A stretch of DNA of 64,000 bases, taken from assembly GCA_947502975.1 (NCBI GenBank), contig CANNBV010000006.1:1-64000 (forward strand). The letters are read 5' to 3'. The notes under the pieces are model-generated. The model ran no database searches and was not told the DNA's origin. It saw only the letters and a list, made by a program, of their open reading frames with translations. Shown in pieces: positions 56,263-63,798 of this stretch. Position numbers and translations under genes: made by a program. How positions within the stretch are numbered: the stretch's first letter is position 1; every line of letters begins with the position of its first letter. The stretch comes from an uncultured Flavobacteriaceae bacterium (GTDB lineage: Bacteria; Bacteroidota; Bacteroidia; Flavobacteriales; Flavobacteriaceae).

Positions 56263-57312
56263 CTACTGCACTTTAATCCTATCAAATTTTTTAAGATTAG
56301 ATAACACTTCCGTATAAATACCATCTGAAAGACCTGTTTCTATTTCAATTTCTTTAATATTATCATCTATCCCAATGACTTCGACAAAAGAATTTTTATT
56401 CCTATATATGATGTTTTTTTCCTTTATAGTCAAGGTGTGTTCTTTCTTTTGCAAAACAAATTCAGCCAAGCCAGTATAACCAGGCTTTATATTTGAAATA
56501 GTATCTAAAACTATAGCACTTGCTAGATAATAAAAACTTTCACCTTCTTTTATCAAAGGCTTTAATTCTTGCACTTTTGCACTAATTAATTTATTGCTTA
56601 AAGCCTTAATATAAACGCCAAAAGTATCTCCAACTTTTACGTTAGGAACATCTATTTCTGTTACTTCAAATTCAAAATTAAAACTAGAAGTATTAACTAT
56701 TGTAGCAATGGTATTACCATCATTGAATGTATTGCGCTCAGTAACATTCATCCCTTTCTTAACAAGTACATTTAAAACTTCTCCATTAATTGTAGCTTTA
56801 ACTATATTAGGTGATTCATTTGCGTTTTTAGAAAATCCATTTTTAACAATATTGTAATTATTCTGTGAATTTGTATATTCTATTTTAGCAAAATTCAATG
56901 CTAATTCAGTTGTTTCAAATTCAGATCTAGCAATAACACCTTTTTTAAATAACTTTATACTCCTATCGTGATTAATCTGTTTTTGTTTTAAATCAGTTAA
57001 TGCCATACGTAAGCTTCGTTTTACGCGTTCCATGTCCTCTGGTATTGGAACAATTCTGAGCTTAGCTATATTTTCACCAACTGAAACAGTGTCTCCTGTT
57101 TTAACATAAATAGAATCAACAACACCAGAAATCTTAGGTTGGATTTTTACCATTTCATAAGGTTTAAATTTACCTAAGAAAAAAATCATTTTATTGATGT
57201 CTCTATATTTAGGTGATTCACTTGGAATTGTTTTTCCAGTGTTCACCGATGAGACAACCACAACAATAGCGATGAAAAACAGTATTATAAAAAAAATTAT
57301 TCTCTTATTCAT
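56263..57312 (-). CDS. HlyD/MacA-like periplasmic adaptor
   Basis: N-terminal TM; FKPYEMVKIQPKISGVVDSIYVKTGDTVSVGENIAKL, coiled-coil, KPGYTGLAEFVL. Confidence 0.85.
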   Translation of the reverse strand: MNKRIIFFIILFFIAIVVVVSSVNTGKTIPSESPKYRDINKMIFFLGKFKPYEMVKIQPKISGVVDSIYVKTGDTVSVGENIAKLRIVPIPEDMERVKRSLRMALTDLKQKQINHDRSIKLFKKGVIARSEFETTELALNFAKIEYTNSQNNYNIVKNGFSKNANESPNIVKATINGEVLNVLVKKGMNVTERNTFNDGNTIATIVNTSSFNFEFEVTEIDVPNVKVGDTFGVYIKALSNKLISAKVQELKPLIKEGESFYYLASAIVLDTISNIKPGYTGLAEFVLQKKEHTLTIKEKNIIYRNKNSFVEVIGIDDNIKEIEIETGLSDGIYTEVLSNLKKFDRIKVQ

Positions 57313-57319
57313 AAACCTC

Positions 57320-58546
57320 TTAATTATTTAATTCTCTAAGCGCCTCAACTGGCAAAACTTTCGATGCTTTTCTTGCTGGTATAATACCAGCAATACAACC
57401 AGATAACACCAATAATAAAATAGCAGATACAATGACGGAAATATTAAGATCTAATATGAGAAATTGGATGTTTCCACCAGAAATTTCTAGATACTTATTG
57501 ATAAGACAAATAACAATAAAACCGATTGTCAGACCAATTACCCCAGATACTAAGGTAATCAGTAATGATTCTAAAAGCACCATAGTTTGAATTGAAACTG
57601 GTCTAGCTCCAAGAGCTTTTCTAAGACCAAATTCCCCGGTTCTTTCCTTTACAATGACTGTCATAATATTAAATATACTCAACATACCACTAATCAAAAA
57701 TGAAATACCTATAAACCATAAAAAAAGGTTGACGGCATTAAATAGTGTATTAAGTGATTTAATGGTATTCTCAATGTTATTAAAAAAGAAAGCCGTTTTA
57801 TCTTTAGAATTAACTCCTTTTTTATTAGATAAATATATTTTTAGTGTTTTTTGAAACTCCTCGGTATTTATATCGCTTTTTAAAGATAAAATGAATTCAT
57901 TCAACTCAGTTTCAGAGTTTATATTTAATGCATTTTCATAAGAAATATATGCTTCATATCCAGAGTTATTGAACATATTATCTTTTTTTACTACTCCAAT
58001 AATTTTATAACCTACATTATCTATAAAAACTAATCTTCCAACACAATTGACATTGTTAAAGAGTTGCTTTGCAATTTCATACCCAACTATGATAACCTTT
58101 CTATTCATATCATGAATATTAAAAGCTCTCCCTGTATTAAATTTTAAGGTCTTTATACTAAAGTAGTTTTCATTGATACCTTTAAGTGAAAAATGATTTA
58201 TACTTTTTCTTTCTGAAATAATTTTAGACACATTAACATTTACAACTGGCGATATATTCTGAATTTCATTAAAATTTAGAATACAACTTTTAATGTCTAT
58301 CATCGTAAAAGAAATCAAATCTCCCTTGGTGACATTAATATCTGATATTGATGCTTCGCCAGAAAAAACCTCAATTGTATTTACAGTATAATCTGCAAAT
58401 AACTTCTTAACTCCATTCTGCAAACCTTCACCAATACCTACTAAAATAATTAATAGCATAATACCCCAAGCCACAGTAATACCTGCAATAATACTTTTGC
58501 TTTTGTTCTTGTATGTGGCACTTAAAACCTCTGGTGTATGAAACAT
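57320..58546 (-). CDS. FtsX/MacB-like ABC transporter permease (no ATPase domain)
   Basis: N-terminal TM, MacB-like periplasmic domain, IFNIMTVIVKERTGEFGLRKALGARPVSIQTMVLLESLLITLVSGVIG. Confidence 0.88.
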   Translation of the reverse strand: MFHTPEVLSATYKNKSKSIIAGITVAWGIMLLIILVGIGEGLQNGVKKLFADYTVNTIEVFSGEASISDINVTKGDLISFTMIDIKSCILNFNEIQNISPVVNVNVSKIISERKSINHFSLKGINENYFSIKTLKFNTGRAFNIHDMNRKVIIVGYEIAKQLFNNVNCVGRLVFIDNVGYKIIGVVKKDNMFNNSGYEAYISYENALNINSETELNEFILSLKSDINTEEFQKTLKIYLSNKKGVNSKDKTAFFFNNIENTIKSLNTLFNAVNLFLWFIGISFLISGMLSIFNIMTVIVKERTGEFGLRKALGARPVSIQTMVLLESLLITLVSGVIGLTIGFIVICLINKYLEISGGNIQFLILDLNISVIVSAILLLVLSGCIAGIIPARKASKVLPVEALRELNN

Positions 58547-58547
58547 T

Positions 58548-60662
58548 TTAAGCGTACTTTAATGAAATTATTTTTTCTTCAAGTAAATAGTTATCTTCTG
58601 GGTTGTCTGAAGAAAGTTGCTCGTTGTGAGTTATAAATAAAATTACCATGTTTTCCTTTAGCTTATCTAAAAGCTCTAAAATCCTACTTTGAATTGCTTT
58701 GTCCATTGAAGCAGTAGCTTCATCAAGAATCAATACTTTGGGTCTTGAGAATAAAGCCCTAGCAATGGCTATAATTTGCTTTTCTCCTCCAGATGGCATA
58801 ACTCCTTCTTTTCCTAAAATAGTCCAATATGAGTTTTTGAATTTTGAAATTATATCACCAAAATTCAGATAACTTTCACAAAAATCAATCACTTTATCTT
58901 CTAAGAGTTTATCATCCAAACAGATATTGAACAAAACACTATCATTAAAAATCTTTATGTTTTGAGAAACATAGGCAATATTTTTACGCCACAACTCAGT
59001 TTTTATAGCTGATAGCTCATACTCGTCGTTAATTGTAATGTTTCCAGAGTGGGGTTTATAAAATTTTAAGAGCAATTGTGAGAGTGTACTTTTCCCACTT
59101 CCACTTTTGCCTTTAAGAAACGTTATATTTCCTTTACTTAACTTTAAGTTTGCTTTTGTAATCAAGCAATCTTGACCAGGATATGAAAAGGATAAGTCTT
59201 TAATAGAAATCAGATATATCTGTTCAACATCCTTTTTATTGGTTTGGCTTTTTGCTTCGTCTAACTCATTACTTCTTTCTGCAAAATCAAACATACGTTC
59301 AATAGCTATCTTACTTTCAAAAATCTCAAAATTAAGCTGAACTGTACTTTTTACTGCCCCTAGAACCATAAATATCAATGATATGATAGCAATTAAGTCC
59401 CCGACTTCAATATTTTTATTAAAGACTAATAAAACAGCATAGGCAATTGCAGAGACAGATATAGCCATACTACAAATTTCAATAAATGTTTCTTGATTAA
59501 CCTCATGTCTTATTAATTTCAAAATTGAATCTTGAAATACCTTATGTTTTGTTACATTTTTTTTATAGAATAAAGCTTCTTTGTTAAATATTTTTATAGT
59601 TTCTATACCACTAATAGTATCTATATAGTGAGATTCTGTTTGTGCATAGTCAATAAACATTCTATGCTGAAATGTTTTAATATTGGTATTGAATAGCCAC
59701 GAACATAAATAAAGTACAGGAAAGGATGCTAAGAGTATCAAAGCCACACCGCTAGAATAATAGAATAAGAGAATAAGTGCTATTACTATCACAAACAGTT
59801 CAATTAATGAATCAGCTATAACAGTCTTTATATTTCTTTGTATACGCTGAGTATCATTCATTCTCGCAATCATGTCGCCTTGCTTTTTACTATCAAAAAA
59901 CACTTTTGGCATTTTGAGTAAACGCTTAAAGAAATATTTAAATACTCTTATATTGAAATTATAAGCTTGTTGAACCAATACTACTGACCTGATATATCTA
60001 AGTCCTATTGTTGCTAGTAGTAAGATAAACCATATACTTATGGTTTTAAGCAATAACTCTAAACTTCTTGAAGGTAAAACAACGTCTATTAATTTTTCAG
60101 TAAAAACTAATGTTGTCATATTAAGCAAAGCAATAATAATACCCAGAAAAACAGCCGAAATATAATATGATGCATCCTCTTTTACCATATCCAATATCCA
60201 ATTTAGATAGTCTCTTTTTTGGGTTTTAACTATTGGAATTGAATTATTTTTTTTTATTATTAGGATATAACCACTTTTCCAAACTTTTAAAAGGTCTTCT
60301 TTTGAATAAGTTTGAATACCTAAAGCGGGGTCTATGATGGTAAACCCTTTTTTATTTTCATAACCAAAACATAGAAGGTAATGTAAAAAGCCTTGACGCT
60401 CAATATGAATAATAAATGGATCTTCGATTGTTTTTATATCGTTAATTGATGCTTCGTATGCTTCAGATGATAAACCAATTTTCTCAGATGCCTGAATAAG
60501 ACCAAAAAACGATGTACCTTTGGAACTAGTTCCACTAATCTCTTTAAGATATTCTAAGTTGGCATCACCACCATAGTATCTTAAAGCCATTTTAAGGCAG
60601 GCACAACCACAATCTTTTTGGTCGTGTTGTAAAACCACATATTTCTTGTAGGTATTAATCAA
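58548..60662 (-). CDS. Peptidase-domain-containing ABC transporter (C39 peptidase, PCAT)
   Basis: VVLQHDQKDCGCACLKMALRYYGG (Cys), GFLHYLLCFGY (His), TIIDPALG (Asp); LKGKSGSGKSTLSQLLLKF Walker A; MPSGGEKQIIAIARALFSRPKVLILDEATASMD. Confidence 0.95.
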   Translation of the reverse strand: MINTYKKYVVLQHDQKDCGCACLKMALRYYGGDANLEYLKEISGTSSKGTSFFGLIQASEKIGLSSEAYEASINDIKTIEDPFIIHIERQGFLHYLLCFGYENKKGFTIIDPALGIQTYSKEDLLKVWKSGYILIIKKNNSIPIVKTQKRDYLNWILDMVKEDASYYISAVFLGIIIALLNMTTLVFTEKLIDVVLPSRSLELLLKTISIWFILLLATIGLRYIRSVVLVQQAYNFNIRVFKYFFKRLLKMPKVFFDSKKQGDMIARMNDTQRIQRNIKTVIADSLIELFVIVIALILLFYYSSGVALILLASFPVLYLCSWLFNTNIKTFQHRMFIDYAQTESHYIDTISGIETIKIFNKEALFYKKNVTKHKVFQDSILKLIRHEVNQETFIEICSMAISVSAIAYAVLLVFNKNIEVGDLIAIISLIFMVLGAVKSTVQLNFEIFESKIAIERMFDFAERSNELDEAKSQTNKKDVEQIYLISIKDLSFSYPGQDCLITKANLKLSKGNITFLKGKSGSGKSTLSQLLLKFYKPHSGNITINDEYELSAIKTELWRKNIAYVSQNIKIFNDSVLFNICLDDKLLEDKVIDFCESYLNFGDIISKFKNSYWTILGKEGVMPSGGEKQIIAIARALFSRPKVLILDEATASMDKAIQSRILELLDKLKENMVILFITHNEQLSSDNPEDNYLLEEKIISLKYA

Positions 60663-61200
60663 TTTGAGCTGCTTTTATATATCTAAGTATAGTTTTAACA
60701 GGAACATCATCATTAATGATTTTAATAAGTTCCTGCTTGGTATTGTATATAAAGTATGATGGAGTGATAGTTTGTTTAAAGAGTGTAAAGAAATCTCCTT
60801 TGCTACATCTCAGAAATTTCACATTAGATATTGAATCTAGCTTAAATTGTTTTTGATAAGCAATAATTTTTTCTTTTGAATTATGAGAAACAAAAATAAC
60901 TTGTGATGCTTTATGGAATTTTTTGAATGTATTAAATAATTTACCTGACTTTTTACAAAGACTACAATCAGGATCAAAATAAACTAGGATTAGACTTTCA
61001 TTTTTTTCTAAGTCATATTTTGAGAAGGGAATAGAATCTAAGGTGTAAAATTCAAAAAGTGGTAGTTTTATATTACTTATCTCAACAGTTGACAACTCAT
61101 TTTCACTTACCTTCTCTGAAGTTTGTTTAGCTTTATTAAAGACTATAATGAGAATACCTATTAGCGATAAAACTATAATAACCTTCACAACCGTTCTCAT
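60655..61200 (-). CDS. Thioredoxin-like/AhpC-TSA-like membrane-anchored protein
   Basis: N-terminal TM; SLILVYFDPDCSLCKKSGKLFNTFKKFH (CxxC), ITPSYFIYNTKQELIKII. Confidence 0.75.
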   Translation of the reverse strand: MRTVVKVIIVLSLIGILIIVFNKAKQTSEKVSENELSTVEISNIKLPLFEFYTLDSIPFSKYDLEKNESLILVYFDPDCSLCKKSGKLFNTFKKFHKASQVIFVSHNSKEKIIAYQKQFKLDSISNVKFLRCSKGDFFTLFKQTITPSYFIYNTKQELIKIINDDVPVKTILRYIKAAQID

Positions 61201-61203
61201 AAT

Positions 61204-61923
61204 TTAAACAAGATCAAAAAGATACCAAAAAACGGTGTTGTAGAATATAAAAATTATAGAATAGGCTAAATAGGAATAACCAATAAGTGCTCTTTTTTTA
61301 ATATTTGTGTAGATATAGCCTAGAAGCAAACCAACAATTAACGGAAATAACACATATACAAAACCTGTTTCATTAACTATATTCCATAACCATTTTGATG
61401 TATTAGCTTTATCAAAAAACATATTGAATCTAAAATAACTTTCAAAGTTATGAATATCATTAAGCTGATAATTTTTCTTGAATATTATAAAGTAAATAGC
61501 AGAAATAACTTCTGGAACATAAAAAACTATAAACGCAATTAATGAGGCTTTCAATATGTTAAGGTATTTTAAAATGTATAGCTTTTTATGAAATAGAATT
61601 AAAATTAAAAAAGTAGCGCTAAAACCCAATGAAACCAAAAGAAGTGGTACTAGAACAAACAATGAATCAACATAGAATGTATCCCAACCATAACTACTAT
61701 CATCAGCGGTTTGTTCAAATTGTTTAAGTTCATCTTCAAATTCAGTTAAATCAATATCTAAATTCCTATACTCATTATATTTTGTTTCATATTTTTTATC
61801 TAAATGTTTTTGGTATACTTTGTCACTTAGTACAACATCATTTGATACAAAAGAAACTAAATAAGAAATTATAATAACTAAAAGTGTAATTAATAATGTG
61901 CTACTATCTAAAAACTTTTTCAT
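61204..61923 (-). CDS. Multi-TM membrane protein of unknown function
   Basis: 239 aa, about 5-6 hydrophobic segments; ATGA overlap with the upstream gene. Confidence 0.65.
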   Translation of the reverse strand: MKKFLDSSTLLITLLVIIISYLVSFVSNDVVLSDKVYQKHLDKKYETKYNEYRNLDIDLTEFEDELKQFEQTADDSSYGWDTFYVDSLFVLVPLLLVSLGFSATFLILILFHKKLYILKYLNILKASLIAFIVFYVPEVISAIYFIIFKKNYQLNDIHNFESYFRFNMFFDKANTSKWLWNIVNETGFVYVLFPLIVGLLLGYIYTNIKKRALIGYSYLAYSIIFIFYNTVFWYLFDLV

Positions 61924-63323
61924 TGATGTTCAAACTGTTCTTTTAGGCTTATCTTCTTTTCTAAGTCATTAATCATCTTTTTTTCTTCTTTAGATTCTAA
62001 AAGAATATTATAATTATCCCAAAACTCTTTATCGTATGGCCTAGGAGTAAAAATATTACTATTCCAATCTGTATCAACTTTAATAAGATTACTATTTGTA
62101 ATAATATTTGTAAATAATATTTCTTGTTTAAGAAAATACTGATTCTCTTTATTTATCTCCTTTTTTGAGACCATGCTATCCATTATAGCGCCCATTCTAA
62201 AAAATATTTTAGGTTTTTCATATGATATATATTTTGGATACATTTTCCCATTAATTTTCATAAGTTTAACTGTGAACTTAGAATGTACTTTTGAACCACC
62301 TATTTTACTAAAAACTCTTACTTTATTGTCATGAATTAAAATGTATTCAAACTCTACTATAGAATAATCATTTGCGTTAATATAAATCCAACCATAAGGC
62401 AATAGATACTTTCCAAAATGCTTATTCAATTTAGCTGGTGGGTTCTTGGGTGTTATTTTAATTTTACAGATATCTGCATTATCAATGTCGCTGGTTATAA
62501 TTGTATCTATTTTAAACGAATGTTTTTTGAGTAAGTTTTTATCTAGAAAAGCATTTTTTTGATTATAATATCTTATTGGATTTATACCACTTGATAATAC
62601 GTATTCCGGATTACCAGATTTATTATCATTATAAATGATAGCTTTTTCAATTTCATCAATTGAAACTTTCTGGATATCGATTACTTTTTTTTGTGATTTT
62701 TTAAAAGACATCCCCTTAACATTACTTAAATAGTTTCTGTAAAAATCTAAAGTATCAATGTTTCTGTTATCATAACTTTTTTTGATTTTAACTATATTAG
62801 TTTTTATATGTTCAATATCTTTATCATATCCAGGATCATACATTTGGATTGCTGCTTCAATCAACCATTTATACTCCAGCTTGTTTTTTTCTGTATGCCG
62901 CAAAAATCCTTCAGCTACAAAGGCTGATTCTGGAAAATTCTTATTGTATAAATCAAATGCTTTATTAACTATTTTTTCAGCAGATAGTCCTGGTTTTATA
63001 ATAACCTCGTCAAGGAGTATGTTTTTAGATTCCAACCTTACAAAATCCATATTAAGCACTTCATGTACACTTAACTTTTTAAGTTCATATCCTAATACTG
63101 AAACAATTAGTTTATTATCATTCTTGGTAATATTTTTAGGTATCGAAATTTTGACATGACCATCTTCATTACTTATGGTGCCCATGGTTTTATTCTCAAA
63201 AAAAATATTTGCATAAGGGATAGGAATACTATCATTATTTACTAGAGTAAACTCAATAATATTCTGAGCATATACTGATAATTGTAAAAATATAAATGTG
63301 AATAATGTCAAGCTCTTTTTCAT
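61920..63323 (-). CDS. Carboxypeptidase-regulatory-like-domain secreted protein (ATG at 63323 preferred over track start 63404)
   Basis: Signal peptide MKKSLTLFTFIFLQLSVYAQ; IEFTLVNNDSIPIPYANIFFENKTMGTISNEDGHVKISIPK...NDNKLIVSVLGYE; LDEVIIKP. Confidence 0.78.
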   Translation of the reverse strand: MKKSLTLFTFIFLQLSVYAQNIIEFTLVNNDSIPIPYANIFFENKTMGTISNEDGHVKISIPKNITKNDNKLIVSVLGYELKKLSVHEVLNMDFVRLESKNILLDEVIIKPGLSAEKIVNKAFDLYNKNFPESAFVAEGFLRHTEKNKLEYKWLIEAAIQMYDPGYDKDIEHIKTNIVKIKKSYDNRNIDTLDFYRNYLSNVKGMSFKKSQKKVIDIQKVSIDEIEKAIIYNDNKSGNPEYVLSSGINPIRYYNQKNAFLDKNLLKKHSFKIDTIITSDIDNADICKIKITPKNPPAKLNKHFGKYLLPYGWIYINANDYSIVEFEYILIHDNKVRVFSKIGGSKVHSKFTVKLMKINGKMYPKYISYEKPKIFFRMGAIMDSMVSKKEINKENQYFLKQEILFTNIITNSNLIKVDTDWNSNIFTPRPYDKEFWDNYNILLESKEEKKMINDLEKKISLKEQFEHQ

Positions 63324-63457
63324 TAATAAATACTTTTTTCGATGAAATAATGCTTTTAATAAAAAATAAAGATGATATTGATATCGACTAAATTTTAATT
63401 TCAAACAACAAATACAATTCTTAACACATTTGTTGTTTGAAATAATTTAGTAAACAA

Positions 63458-63616
63458 TCAAAACCATATAGTTCCAGAACAATTCTTTTCTATTCTAGCT
63501 TTTAAACGTGTTTCTCCACCACCTCTTCTCTGCCATCTACTAGCCATTGCCATACAACGTCCATATGTAGCCCCGCCAAAAATCTTTGAATTTTGTATAA
63601 AGTCTATTTTTTTCAT
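63458..63616 (-). CDS. Small GG-leader peptide precursor 1 (candidate bacteriocin)
   Basis: Read from the reverse complement: MKKIDFIQNSKIFGG|ATYGRCMAMASRWQRRGGGETRLKARIEKNCSGTIWF* (52 aa); not in the ORF track. Confidence 0.75.
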   Translation of the reverse strand: MKKIDFIQNSKIFGGATYGRCMAMASRWQRRGGGETRLKARIEKNCSGTIWF

Positions 63617-63651: not shown

Positions 63652-63798
63652 TTACAAAACTCTTTCATGTCTCTCTACCATTCTATAGAATCTTGCACAA
63701 TCTCCATGATTGTAACATTTATTCATTTGTTTTCTCATGCGCTCTGCAAGCCCCGAAGCAAAAATCTCACTACTTTCGTTTAATTCTAATTTTCTCAT
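63652..63798 (-). CDS. Small leader-peptide precursor 2 (candidate bacteriocin)
   Basis: Read from the reverse complement: MRKLELNESSEIFASGLAERMRKQMNKCYNHGDCARFYRMVERHERVL* (48 aa); leader aligns without gaps to peptide 1 through ..IF; not in the ORF track. Confidence 0.68.
   Translation of the reverse strand: MRKLELNESSEIFASGLAERMRKQMNKCYNHGDCARFYRMVERHERVL

Follow-up and report, generated by a model that had tools for sequence, protein, structure and literature searches.

The window, meaning the whole 64,000-nt stretch of DNA that we analyzed from an uncultured Flavobacteriaceae bacterium, contains a run of eight genes on the minus strand. In order of transcription, they encode two small precursors (peptide 2 and peptide 1), a CarboxypepD_reg protein, a membrane protein, a thioredoxin-like protein, a PCAT, a MacB-type permease, and a membrane-fusion protein (Table 1). 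The peptide 2 frame runs from ATG to TAA and encodes 48 residues, MRKLELNESSEIFASGLAERMRKQMNKCYNHGDCARFYRMVERHERVL; 35 nt separate it from the gene for peptide 1, which reads MKKIDFIQNSKIFGG/ATYGRC... across its leader/core junction. Upstream of peptide 2 lie a gap of ~0.5 kb and then a large gene, which from its sequence we take to be ComM/YifB-like; peptide 2 is therefore probably the first gene of the operon. Bacteroidetes-type promoter patterns were no more frequent in the window than expected by chance, and none was close to either peptide.

Table 1. Features of the precursor operon, with positions in the window
Feature	Position	Strand	Description	Evidence
Precursor peptide 2	63652..63798	-	leader MRKLELNESSEIFASG, core LAERMRKQMNKCYNHGDCARFYRMVERHERVL, net charge +4	ORF, leader profile, AlphaFold, codon match to L046 leader
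Precursor peptide 1	63458..63616	-	leader MKKIDFIQNSKIFGG, core ATYGRCMAMASRWQRRGGGETRLKARIEKNCSGTIWF, net charge +6, Cys nearer the ends	ORF, leader homology
Perfect 16-nt inverted repeat (stem-loop)	63398..63443	.	between precursor genes and rest of operon	repeat search, fold
CarboxypepD_reg-domain protein	61920..63323	-	467 aa, signal-peptide-like start	Pfam PF13715, E 5.6e-10
Hydrophobic multi-TM membrane protein	61204..61923	-	239 aa	profile search of 74 stretches: PCAT clade only
Thioredoxin-like protein	60655..61200	-	CSLC motif	weak Pfam thioredoxin-like matches; clade orthologues all CxxC
PCAT	58548..60662	-	704 aa; C39 peptidase, ABC membrane domain, ATPase	PF03412 (E 2.4e-33), PF00664, PF00005
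MacB/FtsX-type permease	57320..58546	-	without ATPase domain	PF12704, PF02687
HlyD/RND-type membrane-fusion protein	56263..57312	-		PF16576; TIGR01730 over its cut-off

The operon of peptide 2 thus includes a transporter that unites the three PCAT domains in one protein; its best NCBIfam match, TIGR01193, falls under the cut-off. A search of the genome's own contigs with this PCAT returned just two distant ABC transporters. The thioredoxin-like protein is probably a thiol oxidoreductase acting on the Cys pairs of the precursors. The permease has no ATPase domain of its own, and its role could be export or self-protection. The model of the CarboxypepD_reg protein was too poor for use (pLDDT 52). 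The 81-nt stretch around the stem-loop folds at -23.8 kcal/mol and carries no intrinsic-terminator pattern; this element is perhaps a partial terminator or an mRNA stabilizer. Inverted repeats are also found 3' of the precursors in two related operons described below (L046 and L047), with sequences that differ from that in the window.

A sequence-only reading had described peptide 2 as the second precursor of a pair, with a leader parallel to that of peptide 1 and aligning to it without gaps over residues 1 to 13. Both points are borne out, as are the coordinates and residues given for the frame. The alignment score of the two leaders has a p of ~0.0004 against shuffles, and leader-to-leader scores among the precursors in general exceed nearly all shuffles. 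As an independent measure, we built a leader profile from 29 GG leaders, covering positions P13 to P3 and leaving P2 and P1 unused, with both window peptides excluded. Among 1,856 small ORFs located outside long genes in 74 PCAT stretches (the window and its relatives), peptide 2 ranked 66th. For comparison, the three GG precursors of L047 ranked 75th (itself a seed), 125th, and 126th. On profile rank and shuffles we rejected chance as the source of the similarity, and on these sequence comparisons the leader of peptide 2 is real. Neither peptide has a match in Pfam, NCBIfam, or PHROGs, and single-sequence searches of 40 relatives returned matches at chance level alone, several of them containing internal stops.

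The same reading had called the cleavage site of peptide 2 noncanonical, and it is: depending on the register, the site is A-S or S-G, outside the GG, GA, and GS endings described for double-glycine leaders (PMC10885120). The two registers rest on conflicting evidence. The 16-residue leader of the L046 precursor ends in AGG and aligns without gaps to the ASG of peptide 2, and the two sites pair codon by codon, IFASG (ATT TTT GCT TCG GGG) with IYAGG (ATT TAT GCT GGA GGG). Here a single Gly has been replaced (TCG against GGA) and the last Gly kept, so the site is best read, from the codons, as a Gly-to-Ser change beside a retained Gly. Alternatively, A-S is favored by the hydrophobic anchor residues, Ile at -4 and Leu at -12 in peptide 2; L046 in this register has an A-G site resembling those in L053 and L054, whose leaders read IIAG and VMAG. 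The earlier statement that GG is replaced by AS(G) corresponds to the A-S register, one of the two. In both, position -7 is Ser, a residue also found there in a GG sister leader of L047, MKTLSLNESSSVMGG.

Like double-Gly PCAT substrates, peptide 2 has a PCAT in its operon, a site made of small residues, and, when read in the A-S register, hydrophobic residues at -4 and -12; it departs from them in the AS or SG ending and in the Ser, rather than a hydrophobic residue, at -7 (PMC6363468, PMC10885120). The 75 top-ranked ORFs comprised 61 with GG sites, two with GS, two with AG, and one with AS, which was peptide 2; the remaining nine were misplaced or chance matches. Since AG leaders (L053 and L054) and GS leaders (L103 and L125) exist among those collected, Ala at P2 and Ser at P1 each occur, and the A-S combination is unique to peptide 2 among the leader-like ORFs listed. 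Judged by its residues, the site lies outside the described set, yet not far from it, being built of small residues in either register. Because it keeps these residues, and ends in Gly in one register, ordinary cleavage of peptide 2 appears to be the simpler reading.

A deviant site could instead mean that the leader stays uncut or is cut slowly, peptide 2 being a paralogue of the toxin that protects the producer as a hairpin mimic. The operon contains no other obvious small immunity gene, and the gallocin immunity peptide GIP has been modeled as a hairpin and proposed to protect by mimicry (PMC10100652). Nevertheless, we regard this role as distinctly unlikely: peptide 2 has a full PCAT-type leader, which immunity of the GIP type would not need, small residues and a Gly remain in ASG, and neither L046 nor L047 has an equivalent non-Gly copy. 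Its more specific form, in which the eroded ASG would slow or block cleavage, keep the leader-bearing hairpin with the producer, and turn peptide 2 into a sister-derived decoy against the peptide 1 toxin of the same operon, seems to us highly improbable.

The PCAT of the window belongs to a clade of ~12 members sharing ~37 to 61% identity, most other PCATs in 397 genomes of the family being at ~30% or lower. Across the 74 stretches, the multi-TM gene accompanies this clade exclusively, and the thioredoxin gene is nearly confined to it, with one clear exception (L087). The whole operon is present in two relatives, L046 (PCAT identity, 61%) and L047 (57%). L047 encodes three precursors (MKSIELNTLSEIIGG/DYCSRI..., MKTLSLNESSSVMGG/DKCSRL..., and MKTLSLNESSSVMGG/DRCSRL...). 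It also has two CarboxypepD_reg homologues, against one in L046, and these paralogues alternate with the precursor genes (L047:11968-15329); this interleaved duplication suggests that the CarboxypepD_reg protein is a peptide-specific partner with an immunity, receptor, or surface function. The single precursor of L046 appears to be ATT initiated (L046:9769-9942, minus strand), its frame reading (I/M)KRIQLKDASTIYAGGASDRRCARIVKRAARNLERGNLKAFTRLTNNYERLCSRFFK with no in-frame ATG, GTG, or TTG past the upstream stop; the codon may be a rare start, or the fragmented genome may be misassembled here. Near the L046 operon, on the opposite strand, lies a further precursor with a GG leader, of a different type, MKNLNEFGVKGLNSPEMLEINGG/GKKPRRS... 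(L046:13187-13402, plus strand). In L048 (9342-9503) and L049 (8849-9031), precursors with the leader MKELSLEKLENLEGG and a multi-Cys core are followed by an exported-looking protein of ~300 aa and a same-clade PCAT, and the thioredoxin gene is absent. A profile from six sequences, run over the 397 genomes, recovered the known precursors and nothing else credible, and the precursor family is therefore rare. Weak matches in G327 and G211 were rejected because they overlap unrelated genes.

These operons bear on whether peptides 1 and 2 work only jointly, as in an obligate two-component (class IIb-like) bacteriocin. The two genes adjoin and have parallel leaders, two precursors are likewise present at L051, L052, L054, and L056 in the wider PCAT clade, and gallocin A offers a precedent in which each of two peptides is a disulfide-closed helical hairpin (PMC10100652). 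However, the three close operons hold one (L046), two (window), and three (L047) precursors, and distant loci of the PCAT clade hold one or two. Because precursor number varies, the two peptides do not form a unit conserved among these operons. The two-component product that had been suggested as one possibility is thus unsupported as a fixed pair: the earlier reading named absent co-occurrence in related clusters as its refutation, and this applies to the pair but not to the peptide family, of which L046 and L047 each have at least one precursor. No relation is detectable between the peptide 1 and peptide 2 cores (p 0.73), which differ in Cys geometry, as described below. Partner peptides of class IIb are often unrelated to each other. 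Taken together, we consider an obligate pair rather unlikely.

The cores from the three operons have a common Arg/Lys-rich, two-Cys composition, with net charges of +4 to +9 across six cores. As first noted from the sequence, peptide 2 has a C-x5-C pair (C28 and C34), in contrast to the wide C-x24-C spacing of peptide 1; in the cores of peptide 1, L046, and L047, the Cys residues lie toward the two ends. An AlphaFold model of peptide 2, with the six-sequence alignment as input, has helices at residues 17 to 31, beginning directly past ASG, and 35 to 47 (pLDDT of ~86 over residues 21 to 40; pTM, 0.46). The core is therefore predicted to be a helical hairpin, with Cys28 and Cys34 bracketing the turn. 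Its second helix is amphipathic (p 0.0085). A structure search of the PDB with the hairpin model gave no match, and a PDB search by sequence profile gave nothing above chance level.

Could peptide 2 be a functionless, degenerate copy with an eroded cleavage site? It lacks the Cys pair at the core ends, its site is noncanonical, and its core is only weakly similar to those of relatives; the similarity to the L046 core (p 0.019) is marginal and uncorrected for multiple comparisons. On the other hand, its frame is open, its leader is strongly conserved, its Cys pair flanks the predicted turn, its second helix is amphipathic, and it heads the operon. Decay of the precursor is accordingly very unlikely in our view.

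The reading we favor, at a probability of roughly 55%, is that peptide 2 is a diverged class II-type bacteriocin-like precursor with a hairpin core, cut and exported by the PCAT of its operon. Two known systems serve as precedents. Bacteroidetocins, proposed as class IIf by Coyne et al. in 2019, are peptides with a leader of 15 to 16 aa and two or more Cys, encoded in regions that also contain genes for a TM protein, a thiol oxidoreductase, and a PCAT; the toxin is attenuated when either accessory gene is deleted (PMC6671954). By gene content alone, the TM protein, thiol oxidoreductase, and PCAT are present here and clade-wide, and peptide 2 likewise has a 15- to 16-aa leader and a small core that contains two Cys. 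The leader GG of bacteroidetocins is found in peptide 1 and not in peptide 2; the cores here are Arg/Lys-rich predicted hairpins; and the operon adds the CarboxypepD_reg protein, the MacB permease, and the membrane-fusion protein. Gallocin A, of class IIb, consists of two hairpins with intramolecular disulfides that depend on a thioredoxin-domain protein (PMC10100652). The window resembles it in having two adjacent precursors, predicted two-Cys alpha-helical hairpins, and a thioredoxin-domain protein in the locus. Gallocin differs in its 23-aa GG leaders, its Gram-positive host, its few positive charges, and its obligate pairing, and peptide 2 in having its Cys at the turn; moreover, the joint retention of two peptides across related operons that marks class IIb is not seen in the three close operons here.

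On the strength of these precedents, we infer PCAT export, disulfide closure, and antibacterial action as follows. The leader of peptide 2, 15 to 16 residues long, would dock onto the C39 domain of the PCAT encoded in the operon. This transporter would cut past Ala-Ser-Gly, or past Ala-Ser in the other register, and export the core from the cytoplasm. The CxxC-containing thioredoxin-like protein would form a single disulfide between C28 and C34, bracketing the turn, where in relatives the bond would join the ends. The product would be a cationic, amphipathic two-helix hairpin that most likely acts on related bacteria at their envelope, by itself or with peptide 1.

These peptides extend the bacteriocin-like products of this group by a family that is new to description and narrow in distribution, made up of Arg/Lys-rich predicted hairpins with two Cys each. 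One of its members, the apparently ATT-initiated precursor gene of L046, would escape the usual gene callers. With GG in one precursor and ASG in the other, the window offers a natural pair of substrates for a single PCAT, which allows the site tolerance of the C39 peptidase to be probed directly.
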